DNA from: Flavobacterium humidisoli
GTDB lineage: Bacteria > Bacteroidota > Bacteroidia > Flavobacteriales > Flavobacteriaceae
Direction of reading: 5' to 3'
Assembly: GCF_023272795.1 (NCBI RefSeq)
Contig: NZ_CP096829.1
Coordinates: 3,844,001 to 3,908,000 of the forward strand
Length of the DNA: 64,000 nt
Made by a program: the position numbers and the translations under genes. Shown one piece after another: positions 14,331 through 17,414 of the stretch. The notes under the pieces were generated by a model. The model made no database searches, was not told the DNA's origin, and saw nothing but the letters and a program-made list of their open reading frames with translations. Each line of letters starts with the position of its first letter. The first letter of the stretch is position 1.

Positions 14331-15116
14331 ATGAGCAAAACGAAACCGTATGCTTTAATAACCGGTGCCAGCAAAGGCATTGGAAAATCTATTGCTTCTG
14401 AATTGGCGAAACAGGGGTATCCGCTATTGCTTGTAGCAAGGAGTGGGGAGGAGTTAAAAGTACTATCTGATGATCTTCAAATTAAATACGGAATCAGTAC
14501 GGCTGTTTTATCCATTGATCTTTCGGTAAATGGCGCATCGCAAAAAGTAACCGATTGGATAAAAATGAATAACTATCCGATTGGCATTTTAGTTAACAAT
14601 GCGGGTTATGGTGTCTGGAGAGATTTTAGTCAGTCTTCTTTAACCGATCAGCTTGGTATGATGCAACTTAATATGAATGTTGTTGTAGAACTTTCGCATT
14701 TATTAATACCCATACTTTCGCAAGAAAAACAAGCCTACATTTTAAATATATCGAGTACGGCTGCTTATCAGGCTGTGCCAACGCTGGCTGTTTATTCGGC
14801 TACAAAAGCTTTTGTTTTATCTTTTACGCGTGCCCTGCGTTTCGAACTTTCCCAAACTTCAATTTCAGTAACTTGTTTTAGTCCAGGTCCAGTTGATACT
14901 GGTTTTGCCGCAAGAGCGGGTTTAAGTGCTCTAAACAAGATGGCTGAAAAGTTTAATATGCAGCCAGATGAAGTGGCAAAAATGGCTGTAAAAGCCATGT
15001 TCAGCAAAAAATCAGAAGTTATTCCAGGTTTTACCAATCTCATTTCGGTTTATGCCAATCGTGTACTGCCAAAGGCTTTCATCGAAAAAACGGCAGCTGG
15101 GATTTATAAAATTTAA
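14331..15116 (+). CDS. Short-chain dehydrogenase/reductase (SDR)
   Basis: 261-aa classical SDR. The cofactor site TGASKGIG is at residues 12-19, the NNAG motif at about 88-91, the catalytic Ser in NISSTA and Tyr-x-x-x-Lys in YSATK around residues 155-159. NADP use is likely from the RSG after strand 2. It resembles DltE-like SDRs of unknown substrate. The poly-Cys leader lies directly downstream under its own promoter, so the SDR need not share that regulation. Confidence 0.93.
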   Translation: MSKTKPYALITGASKGIGKSIASELAKQGYPLLLVARSGEELKVLSDDLQIKYGISTAVLSIDLSVNGASQKVTDWIKMNNYPIGILVNNAGYGVWRDFSQSSLTDQLGMMQLNMNVVVELSHLLIPILSQEKQAYILNISSTAAYQAVPTLAVYSATKAFVLSFTRALRFELSQTSISVTCFSPGPVDTGFAARAGLSALNKMAEKFNMQPDEVAKMAVKAMFSKKSEVIPGFTNLISVYANRVLPKAFIEKTAAGIYKI

Positions 15117-15143: not shown

Positions 15144-15174
15144 TTTTGGCAAATAATAAATTATATTACATTTG
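15144..15174 (+). promoter_or_regulatory. Bacteroidota-type promoter of the cysteine leader
   Basis: -33 region TTTTGG (15144-15149) and -7 region TACATTTG (15167-15174) fit the TTTG / TAnnTTTG consensus, with 18 bp between the TTTG and the TA. Transcription should begin near 15181, about 20 nt ahead of the leader ATG. Confidence 0.65.
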
Positions 15175-15201
15175 CATAAATGTCTACTAATTCTATAGAG
15201 T

Positions 15202-15288
15202 ATGTCTAATAATAGAAATATGTTTAATTTACCTAAAGGTCGAATGCACGCAAACATGCGAATGTGTTGCTGTTGTTGTTGCTGCTAA
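15202..15288 (+). CDS. 28-residue leader peptide ending in seven cysteines
   Basis: A short frame starting MSNNRNMFNLPKG reads through a Met/His/Arg segment (RMHANMRM) into seven consecutive Cys codons (TGT TGC TGT TGT TGT TGC TGC) and then TAA at 15286-15288. It has its own promoter and lies 51 bp upstream of the PhyH gene. An uninterrupted Cys run just before the stop is the hallmark of a regulatory uORF sensing Cys-tRNA supply: ribosomes would stall when cysteine is low. No clear terminator hairpin follows, so coupling could be translational or through other RNA structure. An alternative start is the internal ATG at 15220. Confidence 0.75.
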   Translation: MSNNRNMFNLPKGRMHANMRMCCCCCCC

Positions 15289-15339
15289 TCTTTCGGAAAA
15301 TTATAAACACTATTATTTCAATTATTAAATATATTTATC

Positions 15340-16146
15340 ATGGTATCTTCTTATAAAACTTTTACACTTGCTAATCAATTAACTAACGAGCAAATTGCCT
15401 TTTTTAACGAACATGGTTTTATCCATTTCAAAAAATTTATAAATCCAGAAACTGTTTCCTCAATCATTGATGCCTCCAAACAAGTAGAGCAAAAATGGAT
15501 AGACAATGAACTTCAAAAAGTAAATGGTGTTCCAATTAAATACGGAAAAGATTTGGATGGTTCTCCAATTGTACAGCGTTTTGCTTTTATCAATCAGCAT
15601 CATCAAACCTTAAGCGGCCTTTTATTGGATCCAAGATTTAATGGTTTATTGCCATTGGCAGGCGATGGTGCAAGATTGGGAACCGAAGAAAAAGACGGAA
15701 TGGTTTTCAATCATTATATTAATGGGCCAGAAAGTAAGTTTACCAAAATGGGCTGGCATACAGATGGTTTGAGAGATATTTTTTATGGTGGAAAATTAAA
15801 CCCGATGTTAAATGTGGGTATTCATTTAAGCACTTTAAAACCAGAAAACGGTGGCCTTAAAATCATTCCGGGCACGCACAAGCAAAGCATTTACCAGATG
15901 CTTTTCCGTAAAAAATACTTTTTAGATAATAATCCTGATCCTCAGGAAGTTTCTATTAATCCAGAAGCAGGCGATTTAACCATTCACGATGGACGTTTGT
16001 GGCACAGAGTTGCACAATCCTCTATCCGTGGCGAAGAGAGTAGAAGGAGAGTTATTTATATTCCGATTATAGCAGGAAAATATGCTCCTAAAAACGAGAA
16101 TAGCCCAACGGTTTTCTATCAACGTTTTGCGGGTATTGTTAAATAA
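15340..16146 (+). CDS. Phytanoyl-CoA dioxygenase (PhyH)-like Fe(II)/2-oxoglutarate oxygenase
   Basis: 268-aa protein with the PhyH layout: ITN-terminal EQIAFFNEHGFIHFKKF, the iron ligands H-x-D in GWHTDG (about residue 140) and the distal His in TIHDGRLWHR (about 215-220), with Arg residues of the 2-oxoglutarate site following. Non-haem iron hydroxylases of this family act on lipids, amino acids or antibiotics. It stands behind the Cys-rich leader and before a CDP-alcohol phosphotransferase and GtrA, hinting at lipid or head-group modification. The substrate is not known. Confidence 0.85.
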   Translation: MVSSYKTFTLANQLTNEQIAFFNEHGFIHFKKFINPETVSSIIDASKQVEQKWIDNELQKVNGVPIKYGKDLDGSPIVQRFAFINQHHQTLSGLLLDPRFNGLLPLAGDGARLGTEEKDGMVFNHYINGPESKFTKMGWHTDGLRDIFYGGKLNPMLNVGIHLSTLKPENGGLKIIPGTHKQSIYQMLFRKKYFLDNNPDPQEVSINPEAGDLTIHDGRLWHRVAQSSIRGEESRRRVIYIPIIAGKYAPKNENSPTVFYQRFAGIVK

Positions 16147-16300
16147 TTATGCTGATTGTTCTCGCATTTAGTTATCTGGTTAGATCAGGTAAGCTAAAAA
16201 GTACCACAGATTTTTTTAAAAATACGCAGCGAAAAATCAAATTTAAAATTGCAAAAGTAGAATTGGCTATACTGTCAGGGTTACAAATATTGGGCTAATA

Positions 16301-16987
16301 ATGGGAAAAGAAATACAGGAGGAGGAATATAGTACAATTGCACAAAGAACATTTTCTGACCGTAAGCGAACTAATATTTTAAAAAGAGCAGAACAGTTAA
16401 CGATTGTATTTTTGCTTCCAAAAGTGCCTAAATTCATTTCACCCAACTTGCTCACTTTGATAGGGACGCTTGGTTCGGGATTGGTTTTTTTAGCTTTTGT
16501 TTTAGGAACTTATTTGACAAACGGGTATTTGCTTTTGGGTATTATCGGATTGGCTATAAATTGGTTAGGCGATTCTTTAGACGGAAGATTGGCTTATTAT
16601 AGAAATATTTCGCGCCGCTGGTATGGTTTTGCACTCGATATTATTGCCGATTGGATTGGTATTGTACTGATAGGCTTTGGCTATTACATTTATGCTGAAA
16701 ACGGCACGCAAATAATAGCCTTTGCTTTTGTAGCGTTGTATGGTTGGTCTATCATCATCAGTCAGTTGCGCTACAAAATTACAGATGAATACAGTATAGA
16801 TTCTGGCTTTGTTGGTCCAACAGAACTTCGATTTATTATTGCTTTAATTTTAATTATAGAAGTTTTATTTCCTGGATCAATTGCCTATTTGGCTGGCTTA
16901 ATTACAGTTATATTACTTCTAATCAATGTTATTGATAGTGCAAAACTTTTAAAGCTAGGCGATTTAAAAGATAAAAACCAAGGCTGA
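16301..16987 (+). CDS. CDP-alcohol phosphatidyltransferase family membrane protein
   Basis: 228-aa integral membrane protein with the CDP-alcohol phosphotransferase core GDSLDGRLAYYRNISRRWYG followed by FALDIIAD. Three of the four catalytic aspartates are visible as D-x2-D-G and D-x3-D. The usual A-R of D-G-x2-A-R is A-Y here and the spacer to the next Gly is nine residues rather than eight. Members condense a CDP-linked lipid or alcohol with an alcohol or phosphate acceptor in phospholipid synthesis. It is followed by gtrA 1 bp later, so they are an operon. Substrate undetermined. Confidence 0.8.
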   Translation: MGKEIQEEEYSTIAQRTFSDRKRTNILKRAEQLTIVFLLPKVPKFISPNLLTLIGTLGSGLVFLAFVLGTYLTNGYLLLGIIGLAINWLGDSLDGRLAYYRNISRRWYGFALDIIADWIGIVLIGFGYYIYAENGTQIIAFAFVALYGWSIIISQLRYKITDEYSIDSGFVGPTELRFIIALILIIEVLFPGSIAYLAGLITVILLLINVIDSAKLLKLGDLKDKNQG

Positions 16988-16988
16988 A

Positions 16989-17414
16989 ATGTTCAAGAAA
17001 AAAGCTATTTTCACTTTTCTGCAGGCGCAAGTTGCGGCATTTTTAGGTGGTATTACCGATTATGGCTTAATGATTTTGTTAACTGAAGTCTTCAAACTGC
17101 ATTTTACCTTTTCTATTCTAATCTCCGGAACTGTTGGCGCCATTATCAATTTCAGCATCAATAGATTTTGGGTATTTAAAAATCAATGCGGTTATAACAG
17201 CCGCATTAATAGTCAGCTTTTTAAATTCGCAGTGGTTGTATTAGGAAGCATTTCTTTAAAATCATTTGGTACGCTTATTTTGCAAAAAGCATTTCAAATC
17301 GATTATCGAATCGGAAGATTAGTAACGGATAGTTTTGTTTCTTATGGATTTAATTACCCACTGATTAAATATTGGGTTTTTAGGGCAAATGAAAAACAGA
17401 ATGTAATCGAATAG
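16989..17414 (+). CDS. GtrA-family membrane protein
   Basis: 141-aa protein with four hydrophobic helices and the GtrA signature (GGITDYGLMILLTE near the start, AIINFSINRFWVF at about 50-62, and a matching SYGFNYPLIKYWVF near the C-terminus). GtrA proteins are thought to flip or present undecaprenyl-linked sugars for glycosylation. The start lies 1 bp after the CDP-alcohol phosphotransferase stop, so translation is probably coupled. The pairing suggests a lipid or cell-envelope head-group pathway, an inference only. Confidence 0.88.
   Translation: MFKKKAIFTFLQAQVAAFLGGITDYGLMILLTEVFKLHFTFSILISGTVGAIINFSINRFWVFKNQCGYNSRINSQLFKFAVVVLGSISLKSFGTLILQKAFQIDYRIGRLVTDSFVSYGFNYPLIKYWVFRANEKQNVIE

Follow-up and report, generated by a model that had tools for sequence, protein, structure and literature searches.

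The leader peptides closest to the one described here are those of Actinobacteria, in which peptides with Cys runs but without terminators were predicted in 2005 to precede cys operons (PMC1262725), and for mycobacteria the passages of PMC9094748 and PMC13236596 that cite the work describe poly-Cys upstream ORFs that respond to cysteine (Canestrari et al. 2020, doi 10.1111/mmi.14498). Excerpts of a transcriptome paper on Flavobacterium psychrophilum, a member of the genus studied here, describe leader-peptide attenuation for amino-acid biosynthesis operons, but make no mention of poly-Cys leaders or of a PhyH operon (PMC9723704). No description of Cys leaders in Bacteroidota was found in the open-access papers searched.

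The leader that we describe lies in a 64,000-nucleotide stretch of Flavobacterium humidisoli DNA (the window), upstream of an operon whose first gene encodes a PhyH-family oxygenase. It resembles the actinobacterial poly-Cys ORFs in that a small frame upstream of an operon carries several Cys codons in a row close to its stop, with no obvious terminator, but it belongs to another phylum, has no evident sequence relation to them, is accompanied by a regulon-wide motif, precedes a PhyH/lipid-type target operon, and has an RNA arm that could base-pair around the start of the following gene. Whereas the mycobacterial start is leaderless, the PhyH leader is predicted from the promoter position to be preceded by some 20 nt of 5' UTR. 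Attenuators of the trp and his type likewise place regulatory codons in a leader, and two leaders of the same regulon, those of metY and of a dehydrogenase gene, are followed by intrinsic terminators as in that type, unlike the PhyH leader, which is not. The cysteine regulon of Firmicutes under CymR, an Rrf2-family protein, offers a further comparison, since here too the other putative targets are sulfur genes and an Rrf2 gene in the cys cluster bears the motif, but in this case a candidate Rrf2 operator, to which we infer that Rrf2 binds, is combined with Cys leader peptides. The locus would be a separate Bacteroidota version of the poly-Cys attenuator, in which both the regulon and the target operon are new.

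The leader ORF and its operon

The features of the locus, in coordinates of the window, are as follows.
14331 to 15116, plus strand: SDR oxidoreductase (PF00106), the upstream neighbor (Pfam and gene order).
15145 to 15174, plus strand: promoter, with TTTG at 15145–15148, 18 nt, and TACATTTG at 15167–15174 (sequence; kept in Flavobacterium and Pedobacter).
15183 to 15199, no strand assigned: 17-bp pseudo-palindrome TCTACTAATTCTATAGA, a candidate sulfur-regulon operator (alignment and genome search).
15193 to 15345, plus strand: two complementary arms of a proposed sequestering RNA structure, one made up of roughly the first 60 nt of the mRNA and the other of the spacer with the PhyH start (15286–15345).
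15202 to 15288, plus strand: leader ORF MSNNRNMFNLPKGRMHANMRMCCCCCCC and stop (sequence and conservation in relatives).
15265 to 15285, plus strand: seven consecutive Cys codons (TGT/TGC), the proposed stall site if charged Cys-tRNA is scarce.
15340 to 16146, plus strand: PhyH-family Fe(II)/2-oxoglutarate oxygenase (PF05721), the first operon gene (Pfam family).
16149 to 16298, plus strand: 49-aa ORF between the PhyH and transferase genes, kept in nearly all loci and with no Pfam match.
16301 to 16987, plus strand: CDP-alcohol phosphatidyltransferase (PF01066; Pfam and gene order).
16989 to 17414, plus strand: GtrA/DPMS-TM family membrane protein (PF04138; Pfam and gene order).

As read from the window sequence, the leader frame begins with the ATG at 15202 and runs for 28 codons to the TAA at 15286–15288, leaving a gap of 51 nt before the PhyH ATG at 15340, in agreement with an earlier note on this DNA that had described a 28-codon frame ending in seven Cys codons and a stop 51 bp before PhyH. 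TTTG/TAnnTTTG is the Bacteroidota promoter consensus, and the promoter that the same note had assigned to the leader, TTTG followed after 18 nt by TACATTTG, fits this consensus and is kept in relatives. Its position predicts a transcription start near 15181, from which the short 5' UTR follows, and the pseudo-palindrome would occupy approximately +2 to +18 of the predicted transcript. The 5.64-Mb genome has a single instance of six Cys codons followed by a stop and none of the reversed control pattern, and such control patterns, together with the conservation described below, rule out a chance origin of the Cys run. A five-Cys pattern was also searched for in a family-wide sample and was set aside, the inspected matches being mostly within genes and in other frames. 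Rfam gave no match near a gathering score.

The gene order SDR, leader, PhyH, 49-aa ORF, CDP-alcohol transferase, GtrA, often followed by DUF4833, is constant in Flavobacterium, and in Pedobacter the order from SDR to GtrA is likewise found with few insertions or losses; in most other families SDR adjoins PhyH. In Pedobacter zeae (locus L174) there is a motif-like site before the DUF4833 gene, which in Flavobacterium is found directly behind the PhyH operon.

Conservation of the leader

With the PhyH protein as query, 80 loci were obtained from named genomes, mostly of Flavobacterium and Pedobacter. An in-frame run of at least three Cys codons is present at the same place before PhyH in 79 of these 80 orthologous loci, which represent two families; L112 is the only locus without it, and the leader of L105 is divergent (MYYIEQHPKNNQVYLMCCCL). 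The earlier note had made its reading depend on conservation of the frame in relatives, and the frame is conserved. The Flavobacterium leaders are of the type MSNKRNMFNFPKGRMHANMRMC(4-9) and the Pedobacter leaders of the type MSNKTxLFYFxxxxNHSxMRMCCCCA, both written up to the stop, and in most sequences MRM directly precedes the Cys run. The run varies from 3 to 9 codons across loci, with 274 TGT and 178 TGC codons that are freely interchanged, and this interchange together with the drifting run length points to selection for the amino acid or for the tRNA that carries it. With no stop behind the Cys run, the frame extends into the start of PhyH in 18 loci, about one-third of those from Flavobacterium, and therefore the stop is not an essential part of the leader; in the remaining loci it is 44–61 nt upstream of PhyH. 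A Cys run directly at the stop, as the note had it, is thus common but not universal, and what is conserved is the run of Cys codons. The leader matches the poly-Cys type both in having such a run close to the end of a small frame and in the retention of that frame upstream of the same operon.

A pseudo-palindromic motif shared with sulfur genes

In the alignment of loci, TCTACTAATTCTATAGA is nearly invariant between the promoter and the leader, Pedobacter included. A search of the F. humidisoli genome allowing at most two mismatches found 18 sites, 7 of them intergenic and 11 within genes; at three mismatches the motif was no commoner than a control pattern. The seven intergenic sites are those of PhyH, of metY (which we take, by eye from the sequence, to be of the O-acetylhomoserine sulfhydrylase type), of three SusC-type TonB receptors, of a glutamate-type dehydrogenase (PF00208), and of an Rrf2-family regulator gene (PF02082), which the motif precedes. 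Downstream of the Rrf2 gene are TauE-family genes (PF01925), cysH- and cysD-type genes (both PF01507), and a GTPase that, from reading its sequence, we presume to be cysN-like. Two of the motif-bearing receptor operons share a gene cluster that also encodes three sulfatases and a protein of the rhodanese-thioredoxin type. The exact motif is found at 15 sites in 5 of 31 sampled Flavobacterium genomes (reversed pattern, 0), all of them intergenic and at the same kinds of genes as in F. humidisoli, and in further Flavobacterium genomes the motif is again beside genes of these kinds. An Rrf2 gene linked to sulfur genes and a motif common to the targets, both present here, are what is expected of an Rrf2-type sulfur regulon. 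Because the motif is common to the PhyH operon and to sulfur genes, the statement of the earlier note that the operon genes have no direct connection with known cysteine synthesis has to be revised.

In another family, at locus L233, a perfect inverted repeat TTTATTAGTCTAC-N7-GTAGACTAATAAA is located ~200–230 nt before PhyH and ahead of a Cys leader, and it may be the operator in that family.

Cys-rich leaders at other genes

Cys-rich leaders are also found at other genes that carry the motif. Behind the motif, metY has the leader MKTIAKRNMMCCKMMQMCIPICCCQK and the dehydrogenase gene has MKNYSRNIMTSFPCSFAMCCMMNYVLKWR and MRTNRNMKILMRRCLIKIPCCI, and those of the TonB receptors are MKTTESISRYILPKKYTYSTICYMCFCC (GTG start) and MKTLQTCCCK; MKTTAYTSHYILPEKFTYNAFSYMCMCC (TTG start); and MKKRMCCR. 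By a rule requiring an ATG or GTG start, a length of 8–45 aa, and MC.C or C..CC, Cys leaders are present at 5 of the 7 motif genes and at none of 52 other upstream regions taken from the window and from fetched stretches (Fisher p 4.2e-6, a value that is only indicative because the rule was written after the leaders were seen). The motif genes without a leader by this rule are Rrf2 and one receptor, the latter being the one with the TTG-start leader. Intrinsic terminators follow the metY and dehydrogenase leaders, which on sequence look like classical attenuators. In two further families, unrelated Cys leaders, MRHSATYYFYISDMCCCIHIPVMCCR and MKFDQQPAYLCSVTHLVTNHLTMMMGMRCC, are found upstream of PhyH, and the occurrence of different peptides at the same genes, with only Cys and Met in common, is best explained by sensing of those codons. 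Elsewhere in the phylum, Cys/Met-rich frames are upstream of metY in 7 of 30 cases, some from close relatives. Such frames, for example MKLTNQYIAREMMCMCCYMQTLH and MQQPCCMCICCPCC, precede metY homologs in other families (L247, L250, L255, L251, L258), so the leader class may be phylum-wide.

Two further arrangements were seen. Before the glutamate-type dehydrogenase gene, tandem Cys leaders ending in SFAMCCMMNYVLKWR and consisting of MRTNRNMKILMRRCLIKIPCCI are found at L204:4050-4420 and also at L172, L179, L209, and L215, with a terminator between the two leaders, and this arrangement is kept in several Flavobacterium genomes. At L143, L144, and L154, a second conserved stem, CCATTTCTG..CAGAAATGG, is located between small Cys leaders and TonB-receptor genes and has no T-run.

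Predicted RNA pairing at the PhyH start

There is no intrinsic terminator between the leader and PhyH, and the PhyH leader is accordingly not a classical terminator-type attenuator. In a single-strand fold of the window leader, the first ~60 nt pair with the spacer and PhyH start (z −2.2), and across 56 sequences from Flavobacterium an average of 71% of the start region is predicted to pair with the first 64 nt (mean z −2.2). With the arms aligned separately, 84% of cells are paired in register versus 42–53% when slid by 1–3 columns, and own arms pair better than swapped arms (residual test, p 1e-4). The arms show scarcely any variation, and for that reason a per-pair permutation gave a weak result (observed 84.0 versus a permutation mean of 83.5, with little covariation); one of the sequences was also the source of the structure. 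RNAalifold found no consensus structure on the full alignment. In Pedobacter no pairing of the PhyH start with the leader is predicted, so an RNA switch cannot be the same there. For Flavobacterium, a sequestering switch is a plausible model.

Proposed control of the operon and alternatives

In our assessment there is a probability of roughly 80% that this is a conserved regulatory leader that senses cysteine and controls the PhyH operon within a sulfur-starvation regulon. We infer that a shortage of cysteine very probably switches the operon on. In view of the motif, the sulfur genes that share it, the other Cys leaders, and the terminators, PhyH probably belongs to the sulfur regulon and would be controlled in two ways, by an operator, probably one for Rrf2, and by a Cys leader on which ribosomes stall. 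The cysteine-sensing upstream ORF proposed in the earlier note is well supported, on comparative grounds, by the conserved Cys run with its synonymous TGT/TGC changes, by the motif common to sulfur-assimilation and scavenging genes, and by the unrelated Cys leaders at sulfur genes and at PhyH homologs of other families. In the mechanism that we propose, the leader would sense cysteine supply by way of charged Cys-tRNA and control production of PhyH, the 49-aa protein, the CDP-alcohol transferase, and GtrA. At one layer the motif would be the operator, and its likeliest binder would be the Rrf2-family regulator of the cys cluster, a candidate whose own gene carries the motif. At the other, scarce Cys-tRNA would cause ribosomes to stall in the run of Cys codons, and in Flavobacterium the stalled and queued ribosomes might cover the 5' RNA arm and thereby expose the PhyH start, whereas plentiful cysteine would let the two arms pair and keep PhyH translation low. 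The RNA part of this model presupposes queued ribosomes.

Control might instead be transcriptional only, through the operator and an Rrf2-type regulator, with the leader kept for some other role of the RNA or DNA and its Cys codons not sensed. Such an explanation would suit a regulon that is marked by the motif alone and in which Rrf2 and one receptor have no Cys leader by the ATG/GTG rule, but we consider it improbable, given that the run persists as Cys codons even as its length changes and TGT and TGC replace each other freely, and that unrelated peptides at other sulfur genes are alike only in Cys/Met richness. We give still less credence to an active peptide, that is, a thiol-rich metal-binding or copper-sensing nascent chain. 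Other bacteria are known to have upstream ORFs with Cys motifs that sense copper, and a tail of 4–9 Cys could bind Cu or Zn, but the leaders of the regulon share only Cys/Met richness and no common spacing motif, the Pedobacter tail is only CCCCA, and the genes in the company of the leaders are for sulfur assimilation and scavenging rather than metal homeostasis. The overlap of the leader frame with the PhyH start in 18 loci brings translational coupling into consideration, whereby ribosomes that complete the leader close to or within the start of PhyH would raise PhyH translation when cysteine is plentiful. This is just as hard to credit, since the stop is 44–61 nt upstream in the other loci, and induction by plenty would be the opposite of what is expected of the sulfur-acquisition genes with the same motif.

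Possible function of the operon

Neighboring genes offer some indication of what the operon may do. At L235, the neighbor of PhyH is a fatty-acid hydroxylase with 49% identity to the one found next to the dehydrogenase that carries the motif, and motif-like sites with two mismatches are found before such a hydroxylase in a Pedobacter (L193) and before another fatty-acid hydroxylase in F. pectinovorum (L196), which points to a putative lipid-hydroxylating set under sulfur control. Sequence comparison of PhyH with the PDB gave weak matches only, to MysH, SnoK, and leucine hydroxylase (E 2e-4 to 0.03), and these fit the oxygenase superfamily without indicating a substrate; the AlphaFold model, built from 16 near-identical sequences, has a mean pLDDT of 40. 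In F. johnsoniae, deletion of the SulA-type gene Fjoh_2419 abolishes sulfonolipids (PMC9304779), and the title of a paper cited there states that efficient gliding of this species requires sulfonolipid synthesis. No SulA-type acyltransferase gene adjoins any of the seven intergenic motif sites, and thus the sulfonolipid synthesis step is not visibly in the regulon. The operon may serve to modify sulfonolipids, to scavenge sulfonates, or to make a replacement lipid free of sulfur, and a sulfonolipid or Cys-derived head group as its product is speculation. A broader proposal, which we offer tentatively and with some doubt, is that an undescribed, phylum-wide class of Cys/Met-rich leaders and an Rrf2-type operator together form a dual-control sulfur-starvation regulon that includes a membrane-lipid set (PhyH, SDR, fatty-acid hydroxylase, CDP-alcohol transferase, and GtrA), through which lipids, perhaps sulfonolipids, would be remodeled or recycled at cysteine shortage.

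Significance for Flavobacterium and Pedobacter

The open-access literature that was searched describes no cysteine control for Bacteroidota, and the present analysis provides a concrete, testable sulfur regulon for Flavobacterium and Pedobacter, defined by its palindromic motif, by a candidate regulator, and by several Cys leaders. It also suggests independent origins of poly-Cys attenuators in Actinobacteria and in Bacteroidota. The conserved, uncharacterized PhyH-CDP-alcohol transferase-GtrA operon is provisionally placed in sulfur metabolism, which would narrow its function, and because sulfonolipids are needed for efficient gliding of F. johnsoniae, a link between cysteine supply and these lipid enzymes, if true, would matter widely across the phylum.
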